From an uncultured Muribaculaceae bacterium (GTDB lineage Bacteria; Bacteroidota; Bacteroidia; Bacteroidales; Muribaculaceae): a stretch of DNA of 64,000 nucleotides. The stretch lies in NCBI GenBank assembly GCA_905233915.1, contig CAJOFM010000001.1, forward strand, positions 333,492-397,491, read 5' to 3'. Below are positions 17,626 to 57,017 of this stretch, in pieces. Made by a program: the position numbers and the translations under genes. A model generated the notes under the pieces. The model saw only the letters and a program-made list of their open reading frames with translations, searched no databases and was not told the origin of the DNA. How positions within the stretch are numbered: position 1 is the stretch's first letter; each line of letters begins with the position of its first letter.

Positions 17626-18222
17626 ATGATGAAAAAAACGTTTTTATTTTTGGCTATGGTGATGCTTGTCATGGCATCATGTAAGCCCAGTGCCAACCAA
17701 GAGACGGAGTCCACCAATGCGGATGTGGAGCAATCGCTCAAAGAATTATGTGAACGCGTTCAGGATATCTATGCGTCAGTTTATGAGGTCTATATTCTCG
17801 AGGACTCGTTGCGCAATCTGGATAAATTGGAAGGAAGCCCCGCCTGGGAAAACCGCAATCGTTTTAACAACGATTACTGCACCAAGGGGTTAAATGACCT
17901 GTTCCGTCAGGTCAATGAAATTGACAGTATTTATCACAACGGCGAGTTGGGCTTCTTTGAGGCCGATTATTGGTTGATGGCCCAGGACTGGGGCTCCGAC
18001 CTTAAAGTCAGTGACGTGAAAGTGCTGTCGATGACCGATCACGAGGCTCTGGTGGAGATTTTGATTCACAATCTTGGCAACAATAATCCTGTGCAGCTGA
18101 AGATGTTGAAAGAGGACGGATTGTGGAAGATTGACAGTTTTATTGATGCGGACAACAATATCGACTTGAAAAAGGAGATGGAACAATATGTGTCCGACGA
18201 AATCAAGAAAAACAAGAAATGA
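17626..18222 (+). CDS. DUF3828-like putative lipoprotein
   Basis: 198 aa from the first of two adjacent ATG codons (17626, 17629), chosen because the promoter ends at 17601. Signal peptide with lipobox LVMASC (Cys about 20). The body resembles DUF3828 proteins: a helical first part, then VSDVKVLSMTDHEALVEILI and LKMLKEDGLWKIDSFID, a small cystatin-like or NTF2-like fold. Function unknown. The stop codon overlaps the start of the M6 protease gene (ATGA), so the two are coupled. It may act with the protease as an inhibitor or chaperone, which is inference only. Confidence 0.78.
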   Translation: MMKKTFLFLAMVMLVMASCKPSANQETESTNADVEQSLKELCERVQDIYASVYEVYILEDSLRNLDKLEGSPAWENRNRFNNDYCTKGLNDLFRQVNEIDSIYHNGELGFFEADYWLMAQDWGSDLKVSDVKVLSMTDHEALVEILIHNLGNNNPVQLKMLKEDGLWKIDSFIDADNNIDLKKEMEQYVSDEIKKNKK

Positions 18223-19940
18223 CAAAGGTAAAGACTTTACTGACTCTAGTTGCTGCCATTGCCTGCTGGACCATGATGCAGGCCGCTCCAGCCAAGCCAG
18301 CTCCATTTACCCATGTCCAGAGCGACGGCTCTACCGTAACGCTGATGATGCGGGGCGGGGAGTTTAACCATTCGCTGATGACCATGGACGGGCTGACCGT
18401 TGACCGTGATACTGATGGCGACTACTATTACACGGCTGGCGGCGCTTTAAGCAACGTGAGGGCACATGACGCGTCCGACCGTGGCATCGAGGAACAGGCT
18501 TTTGTCATTGCCTATCGTGACCAGATGACGTTAGAGTCACGTTCCCGTCGCATGCCCCGTCGCGAGGAGAGCAACGACAACCCGCAGGTGCCCACCTTCG
18601 GGTCTCCGCGCATCCCTATTATCCTGGTCAATTATACCGATGTGAGATTTATTCACAGTGATCCTGTCGCAACTTTCAGGAACCAGTTCAACGAGAAGGA
18701 TTTCAGCTGTCTGCATTACTTCGAGTCTCAGTCACGCGGACGTTTCACGCCCCGGTTTGATATTCTGGGTCCTGTGGATTTGCCCCAAAACAGAGCCTAT
18801 TACGGCGCTAATATCAGGGTTTATGGTCAAGATTGTGATAAGCGATTGGGAACGATGATTTACGATGCCTGCACTCGCCTTTCAGGTGTGGATTTCTCCA
18901 ACTATGACAACAATGGCGATGGCTATGTTGACGTTGTGGTCGCACTCTATGCCGGTGTTGGTGAGTCACAGGCATGGCGCTATGTTCCGGAGTCGGTGTG
19001 GCCTTGCCAATGGGATATGCAGGAAGCCTATGACTGGGGCTGCAGTTCTACCGGCCCGTTTCAACTCAACGGGGTGACAATCAATAAGTTCGCGGTGTTT
19101 AATGAACTGGAGGGAAATAACAACTATAGCACCAACATCGATGGTGTGGGTACTTTCTGTCATGAGTTTGGCCATTGCTTGGGTTTGCCTGACTTTTATC
19201 CCACCGATGGTGGCGGTGCTTATGGCATGAGCAGTTGGGATGTTATGGACAGTGGCTGTTACGCCAACAACGGCGACACCCCTGTAGGATATACGTCCTA
19301 TGAACGTCACTTCATGGGTTGGATGGACCTCATCGAACCTGTTGAGAATACCCAATATTCATTGTCTCCTCTTAATAGTGATAACGGCGCAGCGGTTAAG
19401 GTAACCAATGATGCCAACCCCGACGAGTATTACCTGCTCGAATACCGCACCAAAACAGGTTGGGATTCTTATCTGCCGGCCGAGGGCATACTGATTCTCC
19501 ACGTGGACTATAATAAATTGGTTTGGGATGATAACACGCTAAACAACCTAGCCTCTCATCCGCGCATGTCAATCATTCCGGCTGATAATGAACTGAGGGG
19601 TTATAATAACAGTGGCGATACGTGGCCAAGAGGTTCCTTGGATTCTCTCACCAACAACTCGATTCCCGCTGCCAAGGTCTATACTGGTGGGTTTATGAAC
19701 AAGCCCATCACCAAGATGAGGGTGGATGAAGACAAGCGCATGGCCAGCTTCTGGTATATGAGGGTCCTGCGAGGCGATGTCAACGGCGATGGTGAGGTGA
19801 ATATTGCCGATGTCAATGCCCTCATCAACATTATTTTGACAGGAACTGGAACCGCCAATCCCTCTAGCGACGTGAATGGTGACGGTGAAACCAACATTGC
19901 CGATGTCAATGCGCTGATTGAACTGATATTAAACGGATAA
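18219..19940 (+). CDS. secreted M6-family metalloprotease with dockerin-like tail
   Basis: 573 aa. Signal peptide about 1-22 (cleavage near MQA-AP). A prodomain-like region (about 30-120) precedes the M6 (immune-inhibitor-A-like) catalytic domain. The zinc motif is HEFGHCLGLPD with His315, Glu316, His319 and Asp325, and a downstream SSWDVMDSG Met-turn supports a metzincin-type site. NNGDGYVD near 231-238 looks like a calcium loop. Two dockerin-like repeats end the protein: GDVNGDGEVNIADVNALI and DVNGDGETNIADVNALI, stopping two residues after the last helix. The gene overlaps the lipoprotein upstream and is followed 13 nt later by a C10 protease gene. Expected to degrade extracellular protein. 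Confidence 0.92.
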   Translation: MTKVKTLLTLVAAIACWTMMQAAPAKPAPFTHVQSDGSTVTLMMRGGEFNHSLMTMDGLTVDRDTDGDYYYTAGGALSNVRAHDASDRGIEEQAFVIAYRDQMTLESRSRRMPRREESNDNPQVPTFGSPRIPIILVNYTDVRFIHSDPVATFRNQFNEKDFSCLHYFESQSRGRFTPRFDILGPVDLPQNRAYYGANIRVYGQDCDKRLGTMIYDACTRLSGVDFSNYDNNGDGYVDVVVALYAGVGESQAWRYVPESVWPCQWDMQEAYDWGCSSTGPFQLNGVTINKFAVFNELEGNNNYSTNIDGVGTFCHEFGHCLGLPDFYPTDGGGAYGMSSWDVMDSGCYANNGDTPVGYTSYERHFMGWMDLIEPVENTQYSLSPLNSDNGAAVKVTNDANPDEYYLLEYRTKTGWDSYLPAEGILILHVDYNKLVWDDNTLNNLASHPRMSIIPADNELRGYNNSGDTWPRGSLDSLTNNSIPAAKVYTGGFMNKPITKMRVDEDKRMASFWYMRVLRGDVNGDGEVNIADVNALINIILTGTGTANPSSDVNGDGETNIADVNALIELILNG

Positions 19941-19953
19941 TAGTATAATTGTT

Positions 19954-22671
19954 ATGTCAAACAAAGTGAAGTATTTGATCTGGACGGCCTTGGCCTTGTT
20001 GCCGTTGACGATAACGGCAGCAAGTGTGAATACCGATGCCGCAAGAACCATTGCGCAGCAATTCGTTAATCACCAGTCCCATGGTAAGCTCAGAGCATCA
20101 CATGTGACGATGACGCTCTCACATGCCGAGTTGTCAACGTGGAATGCCACACTCGTGGATTACTACGTCTTCAATTCAACCGATGGCAACGCGTTTGTCA
20201 TCGTTTCGGGTGATGACCGTGCCGAGCAGGTTTTGGGCTATGGTGGCGGGACCATTGACATGAACGATATCCCTTGTGGCCTACAGTGGCTTCTGGACAC
20301 TTATAAAGAGCAGCTAGAGTATCTACATGCCCATCCGGCAGTAGTGGTGGAGACCACCAGCCAGACGTTGAAGTCATCGGGCGTGCAATACCTGCCGCTG
20401 CTATCCAGCGACTGGAGCCAAAGCGAACCGTACTACAATCAGTGCCCGCTCTATGAAGGGAAGCATTGCGTGACGGGCTGCATTGCCACAGCCATGGCCC
20501 AGGTGATGTACTTCTGGCGTTATCCCCAGTCGAGCCCCTCGGTGCGTGGATACAGGCTGCCGTGGATGCAACTGCCCGACCTGCCTCCCACCACGTTTGA
20601 GTGGGACGACATGCTTGACCGATACACCGGCCCCTATACCGAGGTCCAAGCCGAGGCTGTTGCCAAGCTGATGAGGTATTGTGGACAAGCCTGTTCCATG
20701 GACTATGGCGTGGACGGCAGCGGAGCATATGTCCACACCCAGCTCGCGGCTTTGAAGTTGATGAGCTACAACCCTAATGCCACGATGGTGGAGAAGAAGA
20801 ATTATAGTGTGGAGGACTGGAACAGCATGATGTTGAGAGAACTGGAATCAGGCTATCCTCTTCTGTATTCCGGTAGTGGACAGGCTGGCGGACATTCCTT
20901 CGTGCTTGACGGCTATGACGGCAATCAGGGCAAATATCACATCAACTGGGGTTGGGCCGCTAAGGGTAATGGCTATTTTGCGCTGGGCGCATTCAATGTT
21001 AGGGATTACACTTTCAACTCCCAGCAGCAGATGTTGCTTAGGGTTTATCCGTCTACAACACCCGAGATTGCCCAACGATATGACTTTGAGGTAAACGGCA
21101 TCTATTACAAGCTTGGTGACAATGGCGACGAAGCTGTGGTGACCTGCAAGGACACACAGTACAATAGCTATAGTGGCGATGTCAGCGTTCCCAAAAATGT
21201 CACCTGGAACGGCAAGACGATGACCGTTACAGCTGTGGGAAAGGATGCCTTCAGGGATTGTGACAACCTGTATTCGGTAACACTGCCTAGCAGCGTGAAA
21301 CTGATTGATGAAAGAGCTTTCAGGAGTGCATCGAGAATGACCAACGTGGTGATGCCCGATAAATTGGAGTCAATCGGGGCTCTGGCTTTCACCAATTGCA
21401 TTTCGCTTGAAAAGGTGTATCTGCCAAGCTCTTTGCGTGAGATAGGCTATAAAGCGTTTTTGAATTGCACGGGCTTGAATAGGGTAGATGTCGACAATGT
21501 GCAATCGTGGATAGATATCGCTCTTGAGGGTTACTATTCCAGTCCTTTGCTCTATGCGCACCGGCTCTTTGCAGGTGGGCAGGAAATCAAGCATCTGATC
21601 ATTCCGAACTCCACGGTGAGCCTTCCCGATTATAAGTTCGCCGGTTTTTCAGGAATGAATGCTGTCTCTTTCAACGAGGAACTCGTCTCGATAGGAGTAT
21701 CCACCTTTGAGGGTTGCTCATCGTTGTCAAGTCTTGATTTCCCTGAATCGTTGACGACGATAGGACAGGAGTCATTCAAGGGTTGCACAGGATTACAGGA
21801 TCTGGTTCTTACTGAGTCTATCCAACACATTGGCCAAGGAGCCTTCAAAGGCTGTAATAGCGTGAAATCGGTGGATTTCAAGGGGCCTGTGAATGTGATT
21901 GAGACGGATGCTTTTGATGGCTGTGAGAATCTGACCAGCGTCATGACCACCGATTTGGGTTCATGGTTTGATAATGGCTTCAAGAATGAAAAGTCCAATC
22001 CGTTGTCCATCGCTCATCGCTTATTTGTGAACGGCGAGGAGTTAACTGATCTGGCTATCCCCGATGACATCATTTCCATCGGAGATTATTTGTTCTACGG
22101 CTTCTCAGGAATGTCTTCCTTGACGATGGGGAACAATGTGGAAAAGATTGGCAAGAGCGCCTTTGCACAATGTAAGGGCCTGACACAGGTGACGATAGGC
22201 GAGGGAGTGACGGCCATTGGAGAAAAAGCCTTTTCCACTTGCTCCAACCTGCAGTCGATTGTTATCGGCTCCAATGTCCAGTCGATTGAAGATAAGGCAT
22301 TTATTGCATGTCTCAGTTTGACCGATGTGACCTGTCGGCCTTTGGTTCCGCCAGTTGCCGCCAACGTCATGTGGTTCTCCAACGCCACCTGCAGTAAAGC
22401 GGCTCTTAAGGTATCCCGAGACGTGGTCGCTGCATACAAAAAGGCAAATGAGTGGAACCGATTCTCGGAGATTGTCGGCATTGAGATTCATGAGGACTTG
22501 AAAGGTGACGTCAACATCGACGGCGAAATCAATATCGCTGACGTCAATGTGCTTGTGGATGTCATCTTTGCCGAAAGCAGAATCGAGGCCATTCATGATG
22601 TGAATGGAGATGGTGAGGTGAATATTGCCGATGTGAATGCCATCATCGACATGATATTGACCCCGAAGTGA
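19954..22671 (+). CDS. C10 (streptopain-type) cysteine protease with BspA-like LRRs and dockerin-like tail
   Basis: 905 aa. Signal peptide about 1-23. Spi-type inhibitory propeptide about 24-130 with NAFVIVSGDDRAEQVLGYG. The C10 domain (about 145-365) has catalytic Cys176 in VTGCIATAMAQVMYFW and His314 in GGHSFVLDGYDG, then NWGWAAKGNGYFAL. From about 380 to 830 there are repeated LRR_5 units with patterns such as IGKSAFAQCKGLTQVTIG and AFKGCNSVKSVDF. Two dockerin-like repeats close it (GDVNIDGEINIADVN, DVNGDGEVNIADVNAIIDMIL). The LRRs could bind host or dietary ligands and hold the protease near its substrate. It forms a tandem pair with the next gene. Confidence 0.93.
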   Translation: MSNKVKYLIWTALALLPLTITAASVNTDAARTIAQQFVNHQSHGKLRASHVTMTLSHAELSTWNATLVDYYVFNSTDGNAFVIVSGDDRAEQVLGYGGGTIDMNDIPCGLQWLLDTYKEQLEYLHAHPAVVVETTSQTLKSSGVQYLPLLSSDWSQSEPYYNQCPLYEGKHCVTGCIATAMAQVMYFWRYPQSSPSVRGYRLPWMQLPDLPPTTFEWDDMLDRYTGPYTEVQAEAVAKLMRYCGQACSMDYGVDGSGAYVHTQLAALKLMSYNPNATMVEKKNYSVEDWNSMMLRELESGYPLLYSGSGQAGGHSFVLDGYDGNQGKYHINWGWAAKGNGYFALGAFNVRDYTFNSQQQMLLRVYPSTTPEIAQRYDFEVNGIYYKLGDNGDEAVVTCKDTQYNSYSGDVSVPKNVTWNGKTMTVTAVGKDAFRDCDNLYSVTLPSSVKLIDERAFRSASRMTNVVMPDKLESIGALAFTNCISLEKVYLPSSLREIGYKAFLNCTGLNRVDVDNVQSWIDIALEGYYSSPLLYAHRLFAGGQEIKHLIIPNSTVSLPDYKFAGFSGMNAVSFNEELVSIGVSTFEGCSSLSSLDFPESLTTIGQESFKGCTGLQDLVLTESIQHIGQGAFKGCNSVKSVDFKGPVNVIETDAFDGCENLTSVMTTDLGSWFDNGFKNEKSNPLSIAHRLFVNGEELTDLAIPDDIISIGDYLFYGFSGMSSLTMGNNVEKIGKSAFAQCKGLTQVTIGEGVTAIGEKAFSTCSNLQSIVIGSNVQSIEDKAFIACLSLTDVTCRPLVPPVAANVMWFSNATCSKAALKVSRDVVAAYKKANEWNRFSEIVGIEIHEDLKGDVNIDGEINIADVNVLVDVIFAESRIEAIHDVNGDGEVNIADVNAIIDMILTPK

Positions 22672-22688
22672 TAACTTAGAGAGGTGAA

Positions 22689-25004
22689 TTGGCTTTGAAG
22701 AGAATAATATGGCTTGTGGGATTGTTGTCCCTGTGGACAATTAATGCGTTGTCAGCTCCTGTCAACCTGGAGAAGGCATTGGCCATGGCATCTCGTTTCA
22801 CCCAACCTGTCCATCGTGAAAAAGAGGCACGTCCTGCTGCCTCTTTTATTGTATCCCATATCGAGAGTTCTGCTGTTAATCCTGAGGCTGCCGATTATTA
22901 TGTCCTGAATGCAAGTGACGGTAGCGCCTTTGTCATCGTTGCTGGTGATGACCGGGCTGGGGATGTCTTGGCCTATGGCCAGGGAACCATCGACATGTCG
23001 CAGTTGCCTTGTAACTGCAGGTGGTGGCTTGACCAGTACCGCAGCCAGATGGAGTATTTGATTGCCCATCCGGCGATGCGCTTAGTACCTCCAGTCAGTT
23101 CCGATAATGAAACCGTAGTCGCCCCGTTGCTCGCCTGCCAGTGGAACCAGACAAGGCCCTACAACCTGCAGTGCCCGCTCGTTAATGGCGCGCGTTGCGT
23201 GACGGGCTGTGTTGCCACAGCAATGGCCCAGGTCATGTATTATTGGCGGTTTCCTGACGCATTACCGGCCTTGCCTGCCTACACGACTTCAACCCTCAAG
23301 ATTGCTGTTCCCGAGCTTCCGCCCGTCCAGCTCATGTGGCAAGACATGCTGGACACCTACCTGTATAACAGTTATACTGAGGCCCAGGGCGAGGCGGTTG
23401 CCACCCTGATGCGTTATTGTGGCCAATCTTGCAAGATGGATTACACCACGGGGCAGAGTGGCGCTTATTCCTGGAACATGACATCAGCCTTAAAAATGTT
23501 CGGCTACAACCCTTCCATGACCGATTTGATGCGTTATAATTATGGTGATTCGGTGTGGCGGGAGCTGATTTTGGAGGAATTGACTGCGGGCCGACCAATC
23601 CTATATCACGGCCATAATAACAAAGCAGACATAGGGCACGCCTTTGTCATCGATGGTTATGATGGCATCAAGTATCATGTGAATTGGGGGTGGGGTGGAC
23701 TGGCCGACGGCTATTTCGCCTTAAACTCGTTTGTCAGCGGATTGAATGACCGGCACGGCATGCTGTTCCAGTGTTTTCCAGTGGGTGTTGACGGGGTTCA
23801 GCCTGCCCATGACTTTGAGACTGGCGGTATCTACTACAAGATTACGGGCAGGGGCGTTAGGGTGACCTATCCTCCTGGATTGGAGAAATACAGTGGCAGT
23901 GTCACTATCCCCGCTTCAGTCGTTCACGACGGTGGGGAGTATCCGGTTATCGAGATAGGTCCTAGCGCTTTTGCCGATTGCCCGGATTTAACAAGTGTGA
24001 CCATAGGCACTGCTGTACAGTCTATTGATGATGAGGCCTTTGCCCGTTCATCCTCATTGCGGCGCGTGGAATTCCCTACGTCGGTCCAGCGTGTGCATCA
24101 TCAGGCTTTTGCCGATTGTTCGTCACTGGACACGGTTGATATCGAGGGGCTTGAGGCTTGGTGCAGGATTGATTTTCTGGATGATGAGGCCTGTCCGATG
24201 ACCAGTGCCCATCACCTGCGGCTCAACGGAGAGGAGATTACCCATCTGGTTATCCCCGACGGGTTGACGGCTGTTTCCGCCAACTTGTTCCGCAATTGTG
24301 GGTCTATTGTCTCAGTGCAGTTGCCGCCATCGGTGAGGTCAATTGGCAATTATGCGTTTAATAATTGCGGGTCGTTGAAAACCATTCAGATGGGCGATTC
24401 CCTCAGGGTCCTGGGTTACTCCTCAATGGCTGGATGTGTGGCACTCGAGAGTGTCACCCTGCCTGCTGAACTCATGCGCATCGACCGTTATGCCTTCAAG
24501 GGATGCCGATGGCTGATAGAAATCGTTATTCCTGACAAGGTGACATTTATTGGAGCCTATGCTTTCAAGGACTGTAAGCGCATTGAACGCCTTACACTGG
24601 GCGCCCGTGTCGATACCATCGGCAGCAGTGTCTTTGGCGGATGCCTTGCCCTTGACTCCATCACTTGTAGGGCGCCGCGGCCGCCCCTATTGTCTTCCCG
24701 TTCTTGTTTCCATTCCTCAATCTATGCCAACGCCACTTTATTGGTGCCGGCTCCTTCGCTTGAGGCTTACCGCTCGGCCGATTTTTGGCAGTTGTTTGTA
24801 TCCATTAATGGATATGACACTTCATGCGGTCCTGGCGACGTTAATGGTGACGGCGAGATGAATATCGCCGATGTCAATTCCCTCATCACTTTATTATTGA
24901 CAGGAAACACTGTTTCGACAACGGCGGCTGATGTGGATGGTGACGGTGAAATCACCATTGCCGACGTAAATGCCCTTATCGACATGATTCTGCGCGAGCA
25001 ATGA
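22689..25004 (+). CDS. C10 cysteine protease with LRRs and dockerin-like tail (tandem paralogue)
   Basis: 771 aa as given. Same order as its upstream neighbour: signal peptide about 1-22, Spi propeptide (FVIVAGDDRAGDVLAYG), C10 domain with Cys174 in VTGCVATAMAQVMYYW and His317 in IGHAFVIDGYDG, then NWGWGGLADGYFAL. A shorter LRR_5 tract (about 395-690) leads to two dockerin-like repeats (GDVNGDGEMNIADVNSLI, DVDGDGEITIADVNALIDMIL). No in-frame ATG lies before the signal peptide, so the start must be TTG: either 22689 or 22695, the latter giving a typical MKRIIW start. The gap to the upstream gene is 17 nt, so cotranscription is likely. Confidence 0.9.
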   Translation: MALKRIIWLVGLLSLWTINALSAPVNLEKALAMASRFTQPVHREKEARPAASFIVSHIESSAVNPEAADYYVLNASDGSAFVIVAGDDRAGDVLAYGQGTIDMSQLPCNCRWWLDQYRSQMEYLIAHPAMRLVPPVSSDNETVVAPLLACQWNQTRPYNLQCPLVNGARCVTGCVATAMAQVMYYWRFPDALPALPAYTTSTLKIAVPELPPVQLMWQDMLDTYLYNSYTEAQGEAVATLMRYCGQSCKMDYTTGQSGAYSWNMTSALKMFGYNPSMTDLMRYNYGDSVWRELILEELTAGRPILYHGHNNKADIGHAFVIDGYDGIKYHVNWGWGGLADGYFALNSFVSGLNDRHGMLFQCFPVGVDGVQPAHDFETGGIYYKITGRGVRVTYPPGLEKYSGSVTIPASVVHDGGEYPVIEIGPSAFADCPDLTSVTIGTAVQSIDDEAFARSSSLRRVEFPTSVQRVHHQAFADCSSLDTVDIEGLEAWCRIDFLDDEACPMTSAHHLRLNGEEITHLVIPDGLTAVSANLFRNCGSIVSVQLPPSVRSIGNYAFNNCGSLKTIQMGDSLRVLGYSSMAGCVALESVTLPAELMRIDRYAFKGCRWLIEIVIPDKVTFIGAYAFKDCKRIERLTLGARVDTIGSSVFGGCLALDSITCRAPRPPLLSSRSCFHSSIYANATLLVPAPSLEAYRSADFWQLFVSINGYDTSCGPGDVNGDGEMNIADVNSLITLLLTGNTVSTTAADVDGDGEITIADVNALIDMILREQ

Positions 25005-25023
25005 TGAATTAATGAATATCAAT

Positions 25024-25070
25024 AAACGACAAATGGCGCACTATCCAAGTGCGCCATTTGTCGTTTTATA
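25024..25070. terminator. strong bidirectional terminator
   Basis: A 19-bp perfect stem (25024-25042 with 25049-25067), loop ATCCAA, with A-rich and T-rich flanks. It serves both the C10 protease operon (+) and the convergent calycin-like gene (-). Confidence 0.9.
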
Positions 25071-25080
25071 TGGTCAGTGA

Positions 25081-25629
25081 TTAATTTGACAGGATGATGT
25101 CGATCAAGGTGCCGATGTCGGCAACAGTGACCTCGCCGTCATGGTTCACGTCACCTTCCAGTGCTTGGGGAGCGGGAGCTACGCCAAAGGCCGACACATT
25201 AATCTCTTGACCCATGCTGGCCAGGTTGATGTAGATATTGGCATCGGCGGCAGTCTCGGTGAATCGGGTCACGATCTCTACGGGCACAGGGCTCAACAGG
25301 GGACCAACCCAAGAACTGAACTGGGGATCGTCACCAGCGGTGATATCGATGTCACCAGTGTAGTGGATGGTAGTGTAGCCATGCTCAACGACACCTTCCA
25401 CGTTGGTGATGGTGATGTTGCCCACAGGCATGGGGAAGCCATCCATCCAAAGGACGAAGTTGTTCAGAAACATGCTATACGAGCCATTGTCGTTGGTGAC
25501 AAGTACAGGCACCTCTTCCTGCTCGGTGGGATCGCCGTTGATGACAACCTTGAGGTGGCAGGTATAGGTGGTGGCACTCAGTGCCATAGCGCAGCAAGCT
25601 GCAATTGCAAATGCAAATAACTTTTTCAT
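25081..25629 (-). CDS. small secreted calycin-like protein with a single dockerin-like repeat
   Basis: 182 aa from the ATG at 25627-25629 (an upstream TTG is less likely). Signal peptide about 1-18 (MKKLFAFAIAACCAMALS). Residues about 20-140 are a beta-rich domain resembling the calycin-like domain of Bacteroidales secreted proteins (TYTCHLKVVING start, VGNITITNVEG). A short linker leads to one dockerin-like repeat only, GDVNHDGEVTVADIGTLIDIIL, at the very end; relatives here have two. It lies 24 nt downstream of a larger calycin-like gene on the same strand, so probably an operon. Ligand unknown. Confidence 0.78.
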   Translation of the reverse strand: MKKLFAFAIAACCAMALSATTYTCHLKVVINGDPTEQEEVPVLVTNDNGSYSMFLNNFVLWMDGFPMPVGNITITNVEGVVEHGYTTIHYTGDIDITAGDDPQFSSWVGPLLSPVPVEIVTRFTETAADANIYINLASMGQEINVSAFGVAPAPQALEGDVNHDGEVTVADIGTLIDIILSN

Positions 25630-25653
25630 TTTCTTCAATTATTATCTGTTTGA

Positions 25654-27111: not shown

Positions 27112-27143
27112 TATTCTTAACTATGATGTTATTAAATGATTTT

Positions 27144-27887: not shown

Positions 27888-27904
27888 TGATTCAATCGTC
27901 CAAT

Positions 27905-27972
27905 TTTTAACTCTAACCATTAACCTCTAACCATTAACCTCTAACCATTAACCATTAACCACTAACCTCTAA
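27905..27972. repeat. heptamer array of CCATTAA and CCTCTAA units
   Basis: Alternating seven-base units AACCATT and AACCTCT fill the spacer between the barrel gene and the PCMD lipoprotein gene. It is the same family as the array at 10316-10395. Confidence 0.88.
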
Positions 27973-27978
27973 CCTATA

Positions 27979-29136: not shown

Positions 29137-29162
29137 TTTAATTACAATTGCTATCGAACCTG

Positions 29163-31152: not shown

Positions 31153-31285
31153 AGATAACAAAGATTAGTTAATAAAAAAATATGAATTAATACGTTGGTT
31201 AATAGTTCGTTGTTGATTCAAAACATGATTTGGCATTCGGTCGTGAGTCGCTCAAAACCGGAGCACGACCCTTTTTTACATGACG

Positions 31286-46301: not shown

Positions 46302-46309
46302 GCAAAGTT
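46302..46309 (-). promoter_or_regulatory. putative -7 element of patatin-recX-comF
   Basis: CAAAGTTA on + reads TAACTTTG on -, 28 nt before the ATG. A TTTG lies 16 nt further upstream (complement of 46326-46329), shorter than usual. Confidence 0.55.
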
Positions 46310-46353
46310 AATAAAAAAACACCGACAAATGCCATCATTGGTAACTAATTTAC

Positions 46354-46361
46354 TATCTTTG
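46354..46361 (+). promoter_or_regulatory. putative -7 element of holA
   Basis: TATCTTTG, 24 nt before the holA ATG. The nearest upstream TTG is only 13 nt away, so the -33 box is unclear. Confidence 0.55.
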
Positions 46362-46385
46362 CACCGATAATCAACTAAGCTTGTC

Positions 46386-47432: not shown

Positions 47433-47495
47433 TCTTTTTGCTTGATTTGGTGCTGGGCGTTGGCAAAATAATATATTTAAGTTAGCGATATAATA

Positions 47496-49157
47496 ATGAA
47501 AAATTGTTTTTTGTTGCTTGCATGCGCAATGATGACGTGTTTTGCTGTTAGCGCGTCAGTGCGATATGCTGGCGGTGATATCTCACTGCTTACAAAATAT
47601 GAAGAGCACGGCGCCAGATATTATGATGAGAATGGTGCGAGGATTACCAACATGCTTGATTACCTCAAGACTATGGGTTTCAATGCGATGCGTGTTCGCT
47701 TATTTGTTGACCCTTCCAAGGCGAGTGCTGTTCATCAAGGCGAAGGCGTTTGCCAGGATTTGCCCTATGTGATGGCTCTTGGACAGCGCATCAAGGCTGC
47801 AGGATTCAAGTTACTGCTGGATATCCACTATAGTGACACCTGGACCGACCCTGGGCAACATTCCACGCCCTCGTCTTGGACCGTAACCAGTGCTCTTGCA
47901 GACAGTGTATATAGCTATACCAAACGAGTACTCAATGCAATGATCGCAGCTGGAGCCACGCCCGACTTCATTCAAGTGGGCAATGAGGTTACTTATGGCA
48001 TGATGTGGCCGACTGGTCACTGTTATCCTAATGGCAATAATTATGGATCGGGAACATTCGCCACCTTTGCTAACTATCTCACCCATGGCATTCAAGCATG
48101 TCGTGAGGTGTGTCCTGCGGCCCAAATAGTTATCCATACCGAGATGGGCCGTGCGAGCAATGTCACGTCATTTTATAATACACTCAAGAACTACACTGAT
48201 GACTATGACATCATCGGGTTAAGTTACTATCCATACTGGCACGGTGATTTGAATGTTCTCGATCAGTTGCTTACGTCACTCGAATCATCTTTCCCAACCA
48301 AGATGATTCAGATTGTCGAAACTGGATACCCTCATGCCTATTATCCTACGGGTGCAAGCTACGATCTGCAGTCTGTTTGGCCAGCTACCGAAGCCGGCCA
48401 GAAAGCCTTCACAGCTGATCTTGTTGAGCTGCTGAATGGTCATGCAAGAGTGAATGGACTCTATTGGTGGTTCCCTGAGGCCAATGAGTATGGCATCAAC
48501 TATACCAATAGTGTTACTACTGATTGGTACAATTGTGGTTGGTGGGACAATGCGACGGGACAAGAGATGGATGCTCTGTTCGAGGCCTTGTCTTTCTTGG
48601 ATGGAAATGAAGAGGCCCCCGACCTGTATATCGTTGGTGGAGAAGGCACATGGAGCCTGACTGAACCGATGAGCAGGATGACAAATCTTGGAAACGGAAT
48701 CTATGTGGACACTGTAACCATCAGCACTCCGATTTATTTTGTCTTTGCCGATGGAGGTCCCGACATATGGAATAACGATTGGACTGCATTTAACGGCAAT
48801 TATAGATACGGCCCAACATCCACAACAACTATTATGACAGGTACATCTTACACAACCGCCAAGCGCAATAACAATGCTTCATATTATTTCACAGGCGATG
48901 GTAGCGATTATCTTTTCACGTTTGATCTGAACAACCTCAGTTTCAAGCTTGAGGTCGTTGAGGTGACACCGCCAGTAGAGTTGGGTGATGTTAATGAAGA
49001 TGGCTTTATCAATGTCAATGATGTGACAACGCTGATTGCCTATATTTTGGGCAAACCTGTTGAAGTATTTAATGCGAATAACGCCGATATCGATGGCGAT
49101 TCTAAATTCAACGTTAATGATGTCACAAGGCTTATTGCGATGATTCTCACGCACTGA
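47496..49157 (+). CDS. GH53 arabinogalactan endo-beta-1,4-galactanase with dockerin-like tail
   Basis: 553 aa. Signal peptide about 1-20. A GH53 (beta/alpha)8 domain (about 22-375) with acid/base Glu164 in QVGNEVTYG and nucleophile Glu275 in IVETGYPHAY. Further family patterns are GGDISLLTKYEEHGARYYDE, FNAMRVRLFVDP and DIHYSDTWTDPG. It cuts beta-1,4-galactan of type I arabinogalactan in pectin. A beta-rich module (about 385-490, LYIVGGEGTWSLTEPM) resembles a SusE/F-like or starch-binding domain. Two dockerin-like repeats end the protein (GDVNEDGFINVNDVTTLI, DIDGDSKFNVNDVTRLI). No SusC/SusD pair is nearby, so this is not a typical PUL. Confidence 0.92.
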   Translation: MKNCFLLLACAMMTCFAVSASVRYAGGDISLLTKYEEHGARYYDENGARITNMLDYLKTMGFNAMRVRLFVDPSKASAVHQGEGVCQDLPYVMALGQRIKAAGFKLLLDIHYSDTWTDPGQHSTPSSWTVTSALADSVYSYTKRVLNAMIAAGATPDFIQVGNEVTYGMMWPTGHCYPNGNNYGSGTFATFANYLTHGIQACREVCPAAQIVIHTEMGRASNVTSFYNTLKNYTDDYDIIGLSYYPYWHGDLNVLDQLLTSLESSFPTKMIQIVETGYPHAYYPTGASYDLQSVWPATEAGQKAFTADLVELLNGHARVNGLYWWFPEANEYGINYTNSVTTDWYNCGWWDNATGQEMDALFEALSFLDGNEEAPDLYIVGGEGTWSLTEPMSRMTNLGNGIYVDTVTISTPIYFVFADGGPDIWNNDWTAFNGNYRYGPTSTTTIMTGTSYTTAKRNNNASYYFTGDGSDYLFTFDLNNLSFKLEVVEVTPPVELGDVNEDGFINVNDVTTLIAYILGKPVEVFNANNADIDGDSKFNVNDVTRLIAMILTH

Positions 49158-49187
49158 TGGCCATTAAGGTATATGTTTTGGTAATGA

Positions 49188-49221
49188 TTGCGTGGTTATT
49201 CAGTTTTTCTTGTTAATTTTG
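49188..49221 (+). promoter_or_regulatory. promoter of the first subtilisin-like gene
   Basis: TTG (49188-49190), 23 nt, TAATTTTG (49214-49221), 29 nt before the ATG at 49251. It argues against the longer upstream start. Confidence 0.68.
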
Positions 49222-49250
49222 CACTCAAAATAATAAAACGATCAATAATA

Positions 49251-51542
49251 ATGAAAAGAACGATAATGTCATTTGTTGCCCTGCTGACATTGCTTGCAGG
49301 CGCAACACAACTCTATGATTTGTTGCCAGCTGATGTGCATCGCTTTCTTGAAGAACGCGAGGTTGTTAAGCGTTTGGATAGCAAAAAACTTCAGGGTTAC
49401 AAGCCCATCTATGTATCCCCTCAGCGCATCAATGGCATCGAGATGATAGATGCGTTCATTGATTTCAATGACCCCAGCGCTTTGGACCAGGCCCGTGCTT
49501 TAGGTGTCCAGGTTTATGCCGTATTTGATGATTTTGCCACTGCCAAGATACCTCTTGACCTTCTTGAAAAGACTGCAGCTATTCCAGGCGTGGTTGATAT
49601 TGAGATCAGCAGATGGTTGGAAATGTGTACCGACAGTACTCTGCAAGTTACAAGGGCAGGGCAAGTGCTTAACGGCGAGGAGAATGGCCTCCGACAGGGT
49701 TATGATGGCACTGGAGTGATTGTCGGAATGATTGATGCGGGCTTTGATTATCAACACTATGCGTTCCGTAATGCAAAGGATACGAGCCAAACACGCATTG
49801 TCAGGGTCTATGACTTGATTGATTCTACAGCTCATCCCGTGTATGTTAACCACAGCACCTATCCTGGTAGAGTTTTCATGGGGGAGGAAATTGATACCCT
49901 CATCACCGATGGAATTGGTACTCATGGAACCCATACGACCAGTATCGCTGCTGGCTTGCACGTTAATGGCTATGGTGGTATGGCCCCTGGTGCCGATATT
50001 GTGTTGTGTGTGTGCCGCAACATGGAGATGTTGGTTAACGAAACTGATGTGGTCAACTGCATCAAGTACATTTATGCCTATGCTGACAGTGTTGGTAAGC
50101 CCTGCGTTATAAATCTGAGCATTAGCACTCTGAATGGCCCCCATGATGGAAAGGACAAAATTTCCAAAGCGGTGGCACAGAATACGGGCCCCGGACGAAT
50201 CTATGTCACCTCTGCTGGCAATACCGGTAATAGAAGGCAGTACTGCAGCGGACCCGCTACTCTTGATAAACCCTTCAGTTTCTTACTGGGTTTTGATGCT
50301 CCTGGAGTTGATGATGATAATTCTTATTATTATCAGACAACCAACAATGATCTTTGGGTGAGGGGTATCAATCAAAGGCCTATAGTTACTTTCCATGTCT
50401 ACGACAAATTAGATAAGCTCATCATGTGGGAATCTGATGTGATAACGTTGCATGGAAAAGCCGACTGGACGGAATTCAGTGAATACTTTGAGCCGGATAC
50501 TTCAGTTAGCACAGATGGCTACATGTATGCATTGATTTCACAGAATGTGTTGACTGGCAAGTTTGAAGTCACAATAAACGCTTTTAATCTGAAAAGCAAG
50601 TCATGTGCTGTTGATTCCTTAGGTAAGATATCAAGTCGTTATCAATTAGGTGTGTCGATTTATCCGCCCAAGAAGGCTTATCCCAAGCAAACAGATAGTT
50701 GCTATGTAGATATGTGGATATGTAAAGGTGAGCCAGTCATTCCACCTGATACCATTTTCTTTAATGAAGTAACCTCGGCTGGCGATACGATTGTAACCGC
50801 AGTTGATAATTACTACTCGACTCCCAATAGTGATGCAACTATCTGCAACTATGCTGTGAATGATTCGATTATATCAGCTGGAGCATATAATGCTCGGGAC
50901 TCTTATTTTTCTTTTGCAAAGGATAGTGTTGTTTATTTTAGAGCTACAGTTGGTGCGCCATCTTATTTCACGGCATATCAGGCTCCAGGTTGTGGCCCCA
51001 CTGGCAAAGCCTTGCCAACCGTTTTAGCGCCAGGCTATATGGTGACGGCGGCAGTGAACCGCTATGCTCCTAATTTTGGAGATACTGACCCTGGCTTGGT
51101 CATGAAACTTGATGATGGTAGTCTTTGGGGGGTAATGAGCGGAACATCTATGGCTGCGCCCACAGTGGCTGGTATCATTGCCCAATGGCTTCAGGCAAAC
51201 CCGAATCTGACGGTTGGTGACATTAAAGATATCATCGCCAATACTGCCATTAAGGATGAATTTATGGACGATAAATATTTGGGGCCTCGTATGGGTCCCA
51301 ATGGCAAGATCGATGCCATGGCTGGTATCCAATATATCCTGTCGAAGATGCCAGTCGAGATTCTGTTCGGTGATGTGGATGGTGATGGATGGGTCAATGT
51401 CAGCGATGTTACAACACTGATTCATTATATTTTAGGTCTCGATACGCCTGAGATTATTCTTGATGCATCCGATCTGAATCAAGATGGTTTCATTAATGTA
51501 AGTGACGTCACGACATTAATACCTTTGATTCTCTATAATTAA
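49251..51542 (+). CDS. secreted S8 subtilisin-like protease with dockerin-like tail
   Basis: 763 aa. Signal peptide about 1-19. A Bacteroidales-type prodomain (about 20-125) ends in VVDIEISRWLEMCTDST. The S8 domain has Asp162 (VGMIDAGFDYQH), His225 (GTHGTHTTSIAAG) and Ser633 (SGTSMAAPTVAG), with a large insertion between His and Ser that probably forms an extra beta domain (about 340-560). Two dockerin-like repeats end the protein (GDVDGDGWVNVSDVTTLI, DLNQDGFINVSDVTTLI). The next gene is a tandem paralogue. Expected to digest extracellular protein. Confidence 0.92.
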   Translation: MKRTIMSFVALLTLLAGATQLYDLLPADVHRFLEEREVVKRLDSKKLQGYKPIYVSPQRINGIEMIDAFIDFNDPSALDQARALGVQVYAVFDDFATAKIPLDLLEKTAAIPGVVDIEISRWLEMCTDSTLQVTRAGQVLNGEENGLRQGYDGTGVIVGMIDAGFDYQHYAFRNAKDTSQTRIVRVYDLIDSTAHPVYVNHSTYPGRVFMGEEIDTLITDGIGTHGTHTTSIAAGLHVNGYGGMAPGADIVLCVCRNMEMLVNETDVVNCIKYIYAYADSVGKPCVINLSISTLNGPHDGKDKISKAVAQNTGPGRIYVTSAGNTGNRRQYCSGPATLDKPFSFLLGFDAPGVDDDNSYYYQTTNNDLWVRGINQRPIVTFHVYDKLDKLIMWESDVITLHGKADWTEFSEYFEPDTSVSTDGYMYALISQNVLTGKFEVTINAFNLKSKSCAVDSLGKISSRYQLGVSIYPPKKAYPKQTDSCYVDMWICKGEPVIPPDTIFFNEVTSAGDTIVTAVDNYYSTPNSDATICNYAVNDSIISAGAYNARDSYFSFAKDSVVYFRATVGAPSYFTAYQAPGCGPTGKALPTVLAPGYMVTAAVNRYAPNFGDTDPGLVMKLDDGSLWGVMSGTSMAAPTVAGIIAQWLQANPNLTVGDIKDIIANTAIKDEFMDDKYLGPRMGPNGKIDAMAGIQYILSKMPVEILFGDVDGDGWVNVSDVTTLIHYILGLDTPEIILDASDLNQDGFINVSDVTTLIPLILYN

Positions 51543-51568
51543 TGAATTATATCATCGGTTTTCAATAA

Positions 51569-53821
51569 ATGAATAAGGCTATGGGAAAGAGAATCTTCAT
51601 TATTCTGATGACGGTGATTGTGTCGTCATTGGCTGCTAGCGCTCAACGCCTGCTACCTGTTTCAGTACAACAGTTCATGCAAGAACGTGATGAGAGACAT
51701 CGATTAGCAGCTTATGGCGTCGATGCAACTGACGCTTTTCGTTTTGTGCCCTCCCACGATGTGGACGGTCGTGAAGTTGTGGATGCCTTTGTGGTAATTG
51801 ATAATGAATCGGTGTTACCTCTTCTGAAAGAAATGGGTGTGATTGTCAATTGTTTATTTGATGGTTTTGTCACAGCCCAAGTGCCGGTAGATCGATTGGA
51901 AACAGTATCACGTTTGAGAGGCGTGAAAGATGTAGAAATCAGTAGGCGTCTTGAACTGTGTACCGACTCTACCATGGCTGTCACTCATGTCAATCAGGTG
52001 ATTAATGGCATCAACAACAATCTGCCTGCCAACTATGATGGCTCTGGTGTGATTATTGGCATTATTGATGTTGGCTTTGACTATCAGCATCGTGCTTTTA
52101 GGATGAATGATGACGCATCAAAGACGCGCATCAGCAGGGTCTACAGTACAACGCTCAAAACAGGCCATCCTGCACGGAATAATAATTATGTGACCATGCC
52201 GGGCTCTGTTTTTATTGGGGATGAGGTGTATAGATTGACTACCGATAATAGCAGCTCATCCCATGGCACTCATACAGCAAGTATTGCGGCAGGAGCCCAT
52301 GTTAATGGCTATGGTGGTATGGCACCTGGCGCTGAGATCGTCTTGTGTGCGGTGAGTGTATTGGATGGCAGCATGTCGGCAGTAGAGGTTACCAATTGTT
52401 TGAGGTACATCGACGCCTATGCCGATAGCGTGGGTCGCCCTTGCGTAATCAGCATGAGCGTGAGCACACCCAATGGCCCTCGTGATGGTCTGGATTTGTT
52501 TTCAAAAGCCATTAAGCAGACGATGGGACCAGGCCGCATCTTTGTCATCTCATCGGGTAATGATGGTGGTCGCATCGCTTATGCCCACAAGTTGGCATCG
52601 CCTTCCAACCCCTTGCGAGTTCTGTTCAAATCCAAGACTTCCAATGATGCTGATTCCTCTTACTTTTATTCGGGATTGGTTGCCGACATATGGATGAGGG
52701 AAGCATCCTATACTCATTACTATAAATTCCATGTCTTTGACCAGTGGTCGCATAAAATAGTATGGGAGTCAGCTCGTTTGCAATCCAAAAACAGGATTAC
52801 TATCGACCAGCTGAGTGATTATTTTGAGCTAGATTTGTCTCGCGACACGATTGGCTTTATAGAGGGCTTTACGGCATCCTCTTATGGAAAATACCATTTG
52901 GAAGTAACGATTCGCAACCTGCGTAACAAGGAGTATGCTTTGCATAACGGCATTAAATATGGCCGATATGCTTTGGGCTTGAGTATTTATCCACGCAAAC
53001 AAGCTTCTGTTGAAATCGATGCATGGGCTTGTAATTCTAGCTCAGGGTTGGCGTCTATAAAGGATGCTGTGACTACGATAAGCGGTGAACGCATTGAGAA
53101 TTTCTATGCTACTCCTAGTGACTCATGTTGCATTGGCACTTATGCCGTAGGAGATTCCACAATATCAGTTGGCGCTTTCGCTGCCCGTAACAGTTACTAT
53201 TCCATGTTGTCGGGAACGATAGTTACCGATAATTCTTACACTGTGGGTGATATTGCCTCTTTCTCAAGTTATCAGGCCGCTAACACTGGACCGACTCAGA
53301 GAGCCCTTCCAACGGTTTGCGCACCTGGCATCTTGGTAGTAGCAGCAGGAAGTCAGTACTCTTATTTCGCAAGAGGTAGCACTTATACTGTCATGCAGTC
53401 CGATGGTAGTTATTGGGGTGCCATGAGCGGCACTTCTATGGCCGCGCCCACTGTAGCAGGTATTATCGCCTTGTGGTTGCAGGCTAATCCCAGGCTGACA
53501 GTAGGTGATGTGAATGACATTATAGCGCAAACGGCTATCAAGGATTCTTTCACGTTGGGAGAACATCACAGCCAATTCGGTGCCAATGGCAAGATTGATG
53601 CTTACGCTGGAATGCAGCTTGTTCTCAAGCGTCTTAATTTCAAGAGAGGCGACATGAACGGCGATGGCATTGTCAATATATTAGACTTGACGTTGCTGAT
53701 AAATTACGTTTTGGGCGATTCCGTACCGGGCATAACTACTTCGCTAGCCGATCTAAACGGGGATTCCAATGTAAACGTTGCCGATGTAGTTGTCCTTATT
53801 GACCTGATATTGAATAATTGA
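51569..53821 (+). CDS. secreted S8 subtilisin-like protease with dockerin-like tail (tandem paralogue)
   Basis: 750 aa. Signal peptide from MNKAMGKRIF or from the second Met (51581). Same order as its upstream neighbour: prodomain to about 128 (DVEISRRLELCTDST), Asp167 (IGIIDVGFDYQH), His232 (SSHGTHTASIAAG), the large insertion, and Ser623 (SGTSMAAPTVAG). Two dockerin-like repeats end it (GDMNGDGIVNILDLTLLI, DLNGDSNVNVADVVVLI), and the protein stops three residues later. It lies 26 nt after the first S8 gene, so the pair is probably one transcript, ended by the perfect hairpin at 53844. Confidence 0.92.
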   Translation: MNKAMGKRIFIILMTVIVSSLAASAQRLLPVSVQQFMQERDERHRLAAYGVDATDAFRFVPSHDVDGREVVDAFVVIDNESVLPLLKEMGVIVNCLFDGFVTAQVPVDRLETVSRLRGVKDVEISRRLELCTDSTMAVTHVNQVINGINNNLPANYDGSGVIIGIIDVGFDYQHRAFRMNDDASKTRISRVYSTTLKTGHPARNNNYVTMPGSVFIGDEVYRLTTDNSSSSHGTHTASIAAGAHVNGYGGMAPGAEIVLCAVSVLDGSMSAVEVTNCLRYIDAYADSVGRPCVISMSVSTPNGPRDGLDLFSKAIKQTMGPGRIFVISSGNDGGRIAYAHKLASPSNPLRVLFKSKTSNDADSSYFYSGLVADIWMREASYTHYYKFHVFDQWSHKIVWESARLQSKNRITIDQLSDYFELDLSRDTIGFIEGFTASSYGKYHLEVTIRNLRNKEYALHNGIKYGRYALGLSIYPRKQASVEIDAWACNSSSGLASIKDAVTTISGERIENFYATPSDSCCIGTYAVGDSTISVGAFAARNSYYSMLSGTIVTDNSYTVGDIASFSSYQAANTGPTQRALPTVCAPGILVVAAGSQYSYFARGSTYTVMQSDGSYWGAMSGTSMAAPTVAGIIALWLQANPRLTVGDVNDIIAQTAIKDSFTLGEHHSQFGANGKIDAYAGMQLVLKRLNFKRGDMNGDGIVNILDLTLLINYVLGDSVPGITTSLADLNGDSNVNVADVVVLIDLILNN

Positions 53822-53843
53822 ACCAATAGAATTGGTTACCAGT

Positions 53844-53895
53844 TATAAAACGGTAGCCGGGCAATCAAGAGCGATTGCCCGGCTACCGTTTTATA
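53844..53895. terminator. very strong bidirectional terminator
   Basis: A perfect 23-bp stem (53844-53866 with 53873-53895), loop AAGAGC, with A/T ends on both sides. It separates the S8 operon (+) from gpmI (-). Confidence 0.93.
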
Positions 53896-53913
53896 TAGAA
53901 TGATAAATTTCAA

Positions 53914-55437: not shown

Positions 55438-55470
55438 GACTGAATTTTGTTTATAATGTGATTAGGGGTG

Positions 55471-55478
55471 CAAAGTTA
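55471..55478 (-). promoter_or_regulatory. putative -7 element of gpmI
   Basis: CAAAGTTA on + reads TAACTTTG on -, 33 nt before the gpmI ATG. No -33 box at the usual distance. Confidence 0.5.
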
Positions 55479-55560
55479 GCATTTTTTTCTTGATTGATGG
55501 CATTTAATGATGCTGCTTAAAGGTTTTTTATGGTTTATGTGATGTTCATGTGCTATTATA

Positions 55561-55596
55561 AAAAGAAGGCACTCCATTTTGAAGCGCCTTCTTTTG
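55561..55596 (-). terminator. terminator of the third C10 protease gene
   Basis: AAAAGAAGGC (55561-55570) pairs with GCCTTCTTTT (55586-55595). On the - strand it is followed by TTATAAT and lies 15 nt after the stop. Confidence 0.85.
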
Positions 55597-55610
55597 TATG
55601 TGTAGATGAA

Positions 55611-57017
55611 TTAATTATTCAGGATCATTGCGATGAGTGCGGTGACATCTGAAACATTAATGTTTTCATCGCCATTGATGTTAGCTATACTTGCATCTAA
55701 GGAGTCAACCTCTGAATTGAGAATAGCGCTGATCAGATCGGTAACGTCACTAACATTTACAAAACCGTCGCCATTGATATCGCCGAGCTTCTTTTCGGGC
55801 TCATCACCGCCAGGAATCACGTAACCCTCATAGGGGAAGCAATTGATAATCATCTCATTACCGCTGTTGCTGCTCTGGCTGAAATCCCACACCTCATCGT
55901 CACCATAAGGATGGAAAGACATGGCGTCGATTTCATACCAGCCGTCGAACTTGCCATTGAAACCCCAGTTCATGTGGAACTTGCCATCGGCATCAACACC
56001 ATCAAGTACCCAAGCGTGACCTTCCCACATGTCATGGTAGGGGATGGGATGACCGGCTTCAAGCTCGGTGCGTATCAGTTCACACCATTCCTCAATGGTA
56101 TATTTGTTAGAATTATCGTTGTAGTATGATGGGTCTTTACCAATCAACTGCAAGTTCTCATTGTAACCAAAGGTTTTAAAAGCAGTTCGTTGATCATAAG
56201 AATAACTACCTGTGCTTGTGCCGCTGTTTCCATAGCGAGACTTGCATGCTTGTCCGCAGTAGCGGCTCAACTTAGCAACTTCATTGGCCTGCTCATCGGT
56301 ATAATCAGCAATAATAGGGTTACCAGTCTCGGGATCGTAGTAGCGGTATGCGTCAACAATCAGGTCATAGTCAAATGTGGTGGCGGGCAGACTGGAGTAC
56401 CACTGGTAGCCAGTTCCCTGATAGCCGGAGAGTTCAGGTACTTCGTTTGGGTATTTCCAGTAGTTCACGATTTGTGCCATAGCAAGAGGGGCACAACCCA
56501 CCGAAGTGCGTTGCCCAGAGGCATTCGTCGGACACTGGCGATTCCAGGGCTCACCTTGTCCCCATCTTGTCTTCAGCAACGGCTCTACAGGGGTCGATAG
56601 TTTGGTTGCCTTGACTGGAACGGTTTTGCCTTTGTAGGCCTGTGCGGTTTCAATCTGGCCTTTGAGCATGTTCAGGTAGCCCTTCATGTTTTCGGGCATG
56701 GCATTCATGTCGATGCTGCCTTCGGTGCCGTAGGCCAGCACTTCCTTAGCACGGTCGTCACCAGCGATGACAACCCAACCGCCACCGTCAATGTTGAAGA
56801 TATAGTAAGCGTTGTCTTTTACACTGGACTTCTCGGTGTGAACCAGCTTGATGTTTGACGTCGAGCTGTTCATGAATTTTGTAGCCCTGTTCTGCTGGAG
56901 AAACTTGCCGGCAGCAGCACGGGCTGCATTAGCATCAACACTATTGGCATACACGCTCGATGATGCCATAGCAAATGCTGTCAAAACAAATAAATACGTC
57001 AGTTTTTTAATTCTCAT
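55611..57017 (-). CDS. C10 cysteine protease with dockerin-like tail, no LRR
   Basis: 468 aa from the ATG at 57015-57017 (MRIKKLTYLF), set by the promoter at 57081-57110; the open frame continues upstream but past the promoter. Signal peptide about 1-24. Spi propeptide (about 25-140, WVVIAGDDRAKEVLAYG). C10 domain with Cys175 in TSVGCAPLAMAQI and His334 in EGHAWVLDG, followed by MNWGFNGKFDGW. Two dockerin-like repeats end it (GDINGDGFVNVSDVTDLI, INGDENINVSDVTALI). It lacks the LRR region of the other two C10 proteins, so it is closer to a plain streptopain. Probably monocistronic. Confidence 0.93.
   Translation of the reverse strand: MRIKKLTYLFVLTAFAMASSSVYANSVDANAARAAAGKFLQQNRATKFMNSSTSNIKLVHTEKSSVKDNAYYIFNIDGGGWVVIAGDDRAKEVLAYGTEGSIDMNAMPENMKGYLNMLKGQIETAQAYKGKTVPVKATKLSTPVEPLLKTRWGQGEPWNRQCPTNASGQRTSVGCAPLAMAQIVNYWKYPNEVPELSGYQGTGYQWYSSLPATTFDYDLIVDAYRYYDPETGNPIIADYTDEQANEVAKLSRYCGQACKSRYGNSGTSTGSYSYDQRTAFKTFGYNENLQLIGKDPSYYNDNSNKYTIEEWCELIRTELEAGHPIPYHDMWEGHAWVLDGVDADGKFHMNWGFNGKFDGWYEIDAMSFHPYGDDEVWDFSQSSNSGNEMIINCFPYEGYVIPGGDEPEKKLGDINGDGFVNVSDVTDLISAILNSEVDSLDASIANINGDENINVSDVTALIAMILNN

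Follow-up and report, generated by a model that had tools for sequence, protein, structure and literature searches.

Why do nine secreted proteins encoded in one stretch of a Bacteroidales genome end in the same dockerin-like module, and what could this module bind? The question arises from a window of 64,000 nucleotides (the whole stretch of DNA that was analysed) of an uncultured Muribaculaceae bacterium, a gut Bacteroidales organism related to rumen species. The known partners of Dockerin_1 domains are cohesins. The original prediction had reported none in sight, and we indeed found no cohesin-like matches within the window; candidates sit elsewhere in the genome.

Dockerin tails in the window

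All nine predicted ORFs were present, and the pattern that they share lies far beyond chance. The forward strand encodes an M6 metalloprotease (18219..19940, dockerin tail 19773-19928; Pfam M6 55.1 bits, Dockerin_1 41.7 bits), a C10 protease with an I69 propeptide, C10 and LRR_5 (19954..22671, tail 22501-22659), another C10 protease with LRR_5 (22689..25004, tail 24831-24992), a GH53 galactanase (47496..49157, tail 48981-49148) and two S8 subtilases (49188..51542, with the true start probably near 49251, tail 51369-51527; and 51569..53821, tail 53648-53809). On the reverse strand lie a small calycin-like protein (25081..25638), a PCMD or weak calycin-like protein (25654..27111, tail 25669-25821) and a further C10 protease (55611..57197, tail 55620-55787). 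The Pfam Dockerin_1 model scored over its cut-off in 8 of the 9 proteins (E 3e-5 to 2e-11), which identifies their tails as type I dockerins (PF00404). The remaining one, the calycin-like protein of 185 aa (Calycin_like 56.7 bits), holds a single dockerin repeat, that is half a dockerin, at 25081-25155 (14.8 bits, under the cut-off).

A Sec-type N-terminal signal was recognised by eye in each of the nine, as had been claimed, and the dockerin match stops 0-4 residues short of the stop codon. The description of these proteins as unrelated holds in part: they fall into about five fold classes, but include three C10 paralogs and two adjacent S8 paralogs.

The window also contains a secreted protein without a dockerin (29308..31161, reverse strand), which ends in this genome's second C-terminal tag, a CTDa-type, T9SS CTD-like tail at 29311-29457. 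The CTDa search matched this tail, one of the seven sequences in A4, with E 6.7e-27. For A4 against T9SS-type tails, the value was 94%.

Dockerins across the genome

A profile search of the genome for tailed proteins and cohesins yielded 140 dockerin ORFs (21 of which end at the 3′ limit of the fetched stretch), as well as divergent cohesin candidates. As in cellulosomes, dockerins are carried by many secreted enzymes. The module lies at most 12 aa from the stop codon in 106 ORFs, at 13-40 aa in 7 and elsewhere in 27; a count by eye divides the latter into 16 that carry the module in roughly the first 58 residues and 11 in which it is internal. The strictly C-terminal position foreseen for the tail, true of the window, therefore fails as a general rule.

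Among the families listed (the best 25 for each half of the dockerin ORFs), we counted 20 C10, at least 6 M6, at least 4 S8, 25 LRR_5 and 10 CotH proteins, with few glycoside hydrolases (for example 4 alpha-amylases and 1 GH53). Plant cell wall hydrolases, the chief cargo of a cellulosome, do not dominate here. Crude regex typing of the 106 C-terminal dockerin ORFs gave 91 SPI-like signals, 8 lipoprotein flags (some false by eye) and no signal from the chosen start in 5 ORFs; the other 2 had an open 5′ end. In the C10 proteases, the dockerin lies no more than 40 aa from the stop in 13 of the best 17 of 26 candidates.

Candidate cohesins and their sorting tails

These results favour a modular tag that docks or displays secreted proteases and glycanases, and they widen its range to 140 ORFs; its partner, which the original prediction had left unnamed, now has a strong candidate in divergent cohesins. 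The genome likely encodes cohesins that are too diverged for standard searches. Pfam PF00963 gave a single sub-threshold match (17.2 bits against a cut-off of 24.1), which by itself would have favoured the absence of cohesins; this reading was dropped. The set is small: seven cohesin-family modules in five proteins, two at most per protein. A cohesin fold was predicted by a single AlphaFold run, from which no docking was read. The nearest solved cohesins by sequence are those of Clostridium perfringens NagJ (2jh2, 2ozn), with matches that are weak and stand beside chance matches. Several proteins hold a cohesin and a dockerin together, for example as Coh-Doc-Coh or SP-Coh-Doc.

The genome encodes a T9SS (PorU twice, and SprA), and 3 of the 5 cohesin proteins end in probable T9SS-type tails. 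Since the CTDa and CTDb models were built partly from tails that were later scored, the test was repeated with an independent tail model. This model, made from T9SS-type tails of C10 proteases of other genera, matched cohesin carriers of this genome with E 6e-6 to 7e-4 (best E among 120 controls, 0.05), and the carrier L130 failed (E 0.47). TIGR04183 itself found no match in these carriers; cohesin carriers of other families passed TIGR04183/PF18962.

Cohesins and dockerins might instead pair in the periplasm or as soluble assemblies, in pairs or chains, as glycosidases of C. perfringens do, and not on the surface. The closeness to NagJ and the proteins bearing both modules would fit such an arrangement, as would the SP-Coh-Doc protein, in which no sorting tail was found, and most of the cargo, which resembles it in this respect. 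The T9SS-type tails on carriers, their Pfam/NCBIfam support in other families and the presence of a T9SS argue against it, and we regard this arrangement as improbable.

Dockerins and CTD-type tails as separate tags

Nearly none of the dockerin proteins also carries a T9SS CTD. Only 2 of 29 CTDa-type matches lie inside dockerin ORFs, both of them cohesin-bearing; for TIGR04183, it was 2 of 14 matches, both under the cut-off. In the last 110 residues of the 106 C-terminal dockerin ORFs, no match to the tail model fell below E 0.05. Dockerin-tailed proteins thus lack the C-terminal sorting domain of T9SS cargo.

This near-exclusion could mean that the dockerin itself acts in place of the CTD as a signal for secretion or sorting, read by PorV/PorU or another machine, with cohesins being incidental. 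Homologous C10 proteases do bear a dockerin or a CTD-type tail at the identical C-terminal place, and most of the 106 ORFs have a signal-like N-terminus with no recognised outer-membrane export signal. Nevertheless, the module is a Dockerin_1 domain, and cohesins are present and co-occur with it; two endonuclease paralogs bear a dockerin plus a sub-threshold CTD; and in the 16 ORFs with a dockerin near the N-terminus a C-terminal signal could not act. It seems unlikely that the dockerin serves in this way.

Helices and calcium loops of the dockerins

The helix-face residues of the dockerins are genome-specific, alike within and diverging between genomes, and they vary far more than the calcium loops do; the contact positions compared are those of clostridial dockerins. 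Recent duplication of tails could also produce likeness within one genome. In the Coh-Doc-Coh proteins the internal dockerin forms a sequence class of its own, which would agree with its having another partner.

A calcium-gated folding or stability cap without a partner, also proposed originally, would suit a tail that ends many different folds and whose EF-like loops are canonical, with D/N conserved at the calcium positions (frequencies cover the 49 of 105 C-terminal dockerins with both loops caught by regex), but is very improbable given the genome-specific helix faces, two C10 proteases that keep DVTxLIxYVLN-type helices with most of the loop motif lost, the half dockerin in the window and C10 homologs outside the genus that have no dockerin.

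Occurrence in related genomes

In other congeners, a dockerin occupies the position of the CTD in 8 of the 10 C10 protease ORFs read (at most 40 aa from the stop). In G001, an 85% complete genome from a different genus of the family, there are 31 dockerin matches, and the three C10 proteases end in CTD-like tails; the A2 cohesin was not found in it, which speaks against docking. Across the order, 14 genomes had at least 10 dockerin matches, and just 7 of them had the A2 cohesin, in searches that scored part of the candidates per genome (at most 14 and at most 21). Proteins that bear a cohesin as well as a dockerin account for part of this co-occurrence, and genomes that are related do not count as independent. 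Among the dockerin matches listed for the seven A2-negative genomes, those of five nearly always begin at profile positions 8-11, the one listed for G169 begins at position 2, and none is listed for G224; the cohesin-positive G331 also has matches starting at 8-11. Cohesins per protein number six in the congener G060 and up to 10 in other families. One A2-positive protein from another Bacteroidales family exceeds the PF00963 cut-off (58.8 bits).

A proposed surface complex

The very large dockerin set, the small cohesin set with T9SS-type tails on three of five carriers, and the T9SS in the genome lead us to consider it probable that the tail serves to dock proteins onto divergent cohesins of the same bacterium in a surface protein-degrading complex. 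Sorting-tailed cohesin proteins would reach the cell surface, and dockerin-tailed proteases, LRR and CotH-type proteins, nucleases and a few glycosidases would dock on them through calcium-dependent binding. The outcome would be a cellulosome-like, T9SS-anchored complex aimed largely at protein. Cargo without a sorting tail might cross the outer membrane by co-export on the cohesin protein, which is a guess. More tentatively, one may imagine a Gram-negative “proteolysome”, in which about a hundred proteases and adhesin-like proteins, with dockerins in place of sorting tails, are exported by piggyback on the T9SS and held at the surface by a few sorting-tailed cohesin carriers, a single signal on the carrier serving many clients, with a lineage-specific cohesin-dockerin code; we find this fuller scheme possible yet doubtful.

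Candidate cohesins, their carriers and a detecting profile can now be named for Bacteroidetes dockerins, so the role of partnerless rumen dockerins becomes a matter for a binding experiment. If the docking reading is true, surface proteolysis in gut Bacteroidales is also organised by cohesin-dockerin assembly, with an anchor unlike that of Gram-positive fibre degraders. It would bear on protein breakdown in the rumen and offer new cohesin-dockerin pairs.

Comparison with known systems

Gram-positive cellulosomes are anchored by SLH domains or sortase. Like the cellulosomes and amylosomes known from Firmicutes (Ruminococcus flavefaciens, Acetivibrio, R. bromii), the system described here places dockerins on a large number of secreted proteins and has cohesin modules with the same predicted fold; its relatives have scaffoldin-like proteins with cohesins in tandem, and the dockerin borne on a scaffold falls in a class of its own. 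It differs in belonging to Gram-negative Bacteroidales with T9SS-type tails as putative anchors, in cargo rich in C10/M6/S8 proteases, LRR and CotH proteins with few glycoside hydrolases, and in cohesins that fall under the Pfam cut-off and number at most two per protein.

C. perfringens NagJ (GH84C) combines cohesin and dockerin in one protein, and single glycosidases pair there. It is the best true sequence match (2jh2, 2ozn) and shares this architecture, in contrast to the 140 dockerin ORFs here and the multi-cohesin, sorting-tailed carriers of relatives. With T9SS-anchored Bacteroidota proteases (type A CTD), the common features are the protease families, Sec-type signals and a T9SS in the genome; here, however, the C10 dockerin sits where the CTD would be. 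No description of cohesins with T9SS tails in Bacteroidota was recognised among the open-licence papers that literature searches listed.

The reported rumen Bacteroidetes dockerins without a known partner come from the same habitat (PMC7260996; PMC7480376, ERAC consortium; PMC6071333, camel). In PMC7260996, about 24% of dockerin proteins in a bovine gene catalogue have a CAZyme domain and proteases make up 4% (apparently of the remainder), and recognizable cohesins are absent from its Bacteroidetes MAGs, perhaps being too distant to recognise. The available text of PMC6071333 mentions cohesins for certain Bacteroidetes and describes no such system. The Limousia mucinolysome (PMC12997984) follows a similar cellulosome-like logic on a substrate other than plant fibre; its cargo is mucin-degrading and T9SS is not mentioned in the sections available, whereas proteases and LRR proteins prevail here.

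Dockerin-tailed proteins in the window and the genome

The original prediction of nine ORFs ending in dockerin-like tails was borne out: Pfam places Dockerin_1 above the cut-off in eight of the nine, the other being a 185-aa calycin-like protein with a single repeat (14.8 bits). The cargo domains assigned by Pfam are M6, C10 (three), Calycin_like, PCMD, GH53 and S8 (two). The same window holds an ORF (29308–31161) with a second type of C-terminal tag and no dockerin, as well as what by eye is a pseudouridine-synthase-like protein whose N-terminal part carries a long array of QGGYQPR repeats (35192–36688, minus strand).

The source genome yielded at least 147 PF00404 matches at E ≤ 1 (150 of 210 candidates scored), in 140 distinct ORFs. 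At most 12 aa separate the dockerin from the stop in 106 of these ORFs and 13–40 aa in 7, and in 27 it lies elsewhere, as read from targeted stretches beyond whose 3′ ends 21 of the 140 extend. About 16 ORFs carry the dockerin near the N-terminus, shortly past the signal peptide, with other domains downstream; several appear by eye to continue into FGE-sulfatase-like or CotH-like bodies.

Cargo was typed with Pfam (E ≤ 1e-5) in two sets of 79 and 61 ORFs, with the top 25 families listed for each. Among the families listed, proteases and LRR proteins are the top classes and glycoside hydrolases are few. We counted LRR_5 in 14 and 11 ORFs of the respective sets, C10 in 10 and 10, CotH in 5 and 5, FGE-sulfatase in 4 and 1, M6 in 2 and 4, endonuclease I and alpha-amylase in 3 and 1 each, S8 in 4 of the first set, and GH53 and a Porphyromonas-type peptidyl-arginine deiminase in one ORF each.

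Tail swap on C10 proteases

Homologs of one C10 protease of the window are present in 104 of 119 family genomes. Full C-termini were read at high-scoring loci, and in the source genome (17 of 26 candidates) tail types were assigned by position and ORF length matching. There, Pfam recognises a dockerin at 14 of 17 loci, placed no more than 12 aa before the stop in 10, up to 40 aa before it in 3 and internally in 1; two further loci have a loop-poor dockerin remnant and one the CTDa tail, a T9SS CTD-like tag. The remnants belong to two adjoining proteases (G000:C7:127544-130303), which retain DVTxLIxYVLN-type helices and have mostly lost the calcium-loop motif. Tails in other congeners are dockerins in 8 of 10 cases and CTD-like in 2. 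Outside the genus, a C-terminal dockerin occurs in 0 of 25 loci against those 8 of 10 (p 2e-6); one of the 25 has an internal dockerin, and 17 match the T9SS sorting-domain model TIGR04183 at E ≤ 0.1.

Sorting tails of cohesin carriers

The source genome encodes T9SS machinery (two PorU and SprA) and has 29 CTDa matches and 14 TIGR04183 matches, 7 of them above the cut-off. The two PorU sortase genes lie in close proximity (G000:C4:97158-105424).

Its cohesin carriers gave no match to TIGR04183 itself. With a model built from the 25 outside-genus C10 tails (Z set to 100), the three carriers of the source genome matched: C15 (E 6e-6), C9 (1e-5) and C17 (7e-4). Eight of nine carriers or carrier fragments tested at loci L128–L136 also matched, with L130 (0.47) as the miss. 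Among 120 controls, made up of 106 C-termini with a dockerin tail and 14 reversed tails, the strongest match was at 0.05. In profile comparison, A4, a tail family from seven CTDa-type sequences, scored 94% against the outside-genus C10 tails and 2% against a cohesin profile.

Two endonuclease I paralogs (G000:C1:559063, C3:123910) combine a dockerin with a sub-threshold T9SS tail; a neighbour of the former (C1:561439) stops 10 aa past its dockerin.

Genome-specific dockerin sequences

We compared 105 dockerins of the source genome with 40 from five congeners, the best-scoring among those listed, excluding four that adjoin cohesins and one C10 entry read before. Identity over the contact set is 0.59–0.83 within congeners, 0.52 within the source genome and 0.27–0.60 between genomes; over the calcium loop it is 0.58–0.83 within against 0.54–0.75 between. 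A permutation test on 52 sequences gave 0.68 within and 0.38 between, a difference reached in 0 of 2000 permutations. Recent duplication of tails could also produce such within-genome likeness. Dockerins sandwiched between two cohesins (n = 16, one duplicate removed) form a class: their mutual identity is 0.46, that of 30 sampled C-terminal dockerins 0.49, and that across the groups 0.32.

Docking proposal and distribution of the modules

Computation shows which modules are present, the families they belong to, how they are distributed, and the tail swap. In the proposed working, cohesins of the source genome would bind its own dockerins, carriers with T9SS-type tails would be located at the cell surface, and dockerin cargo would dock onto them. 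The favoured reading for cargo that lacks a sorting tail, itself a tentative and rather doubtful one, is export together with the carrier.

Each of the seven genomes sampled from the genus has at least 48 dockerin matches (49 scored each), against 0–7 per genome elsewhere in the family, with the exception of G001 (31), a member of another genus. Across the 119 family genomes, 34 are cohesin-positive, 33 dockerin-positive and 24 both (p 2e-10); outside the genus, dockerins occur in 17 of the 27 genomes with a cohesin and in 9 of the remaining 85 (p 2e-7). Among 295 order genomes the corresponding figures are 22 of 23 and 59 of 272 (p 8e-13). In all these comparisons the co-occurrence is partly due to single proteins with both modules, and the p values come from related, non-independent genomes and the scored fraction of candidates in each.

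Three observations count against this proposal: the search of G001 with A2, the divergent cohesin profile, gave no match; 7 of 14 dockerin-rich order genomes likewise have no A2 cohesin; and carriers of the source genome bear at most two cohesins each. In five dockerin-rich genomes without A2 cohesins (G211, G212, G233, G236 and G312), listed matches nearly always start at profile position 8–11, and their tails are possibly another EF-hand-like tail. G001 also has three C10 proteases with CTD-like tails.

Comparison with cellulosomes

Dockerins of rumen Bacteroidetes are already known; PMC7260996 calls their role unclear, and offers as alternatives that they lie outside any bona fide cellulosome or that their cohesins are too distant to recognise. 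PMC9177762 reports cohesins solely in Firmicutes_A bins and PMC6071333 mentions a cohesin domain for certain Bacteroidetes. Our literature search recognised no published description of cohesins with T9SS tails. The present system differs from a cellulosome in its cargo, which does not place it among them, and its scaffold structure is only partial in the source genome; in its proposed mechanism, it probably works like one.
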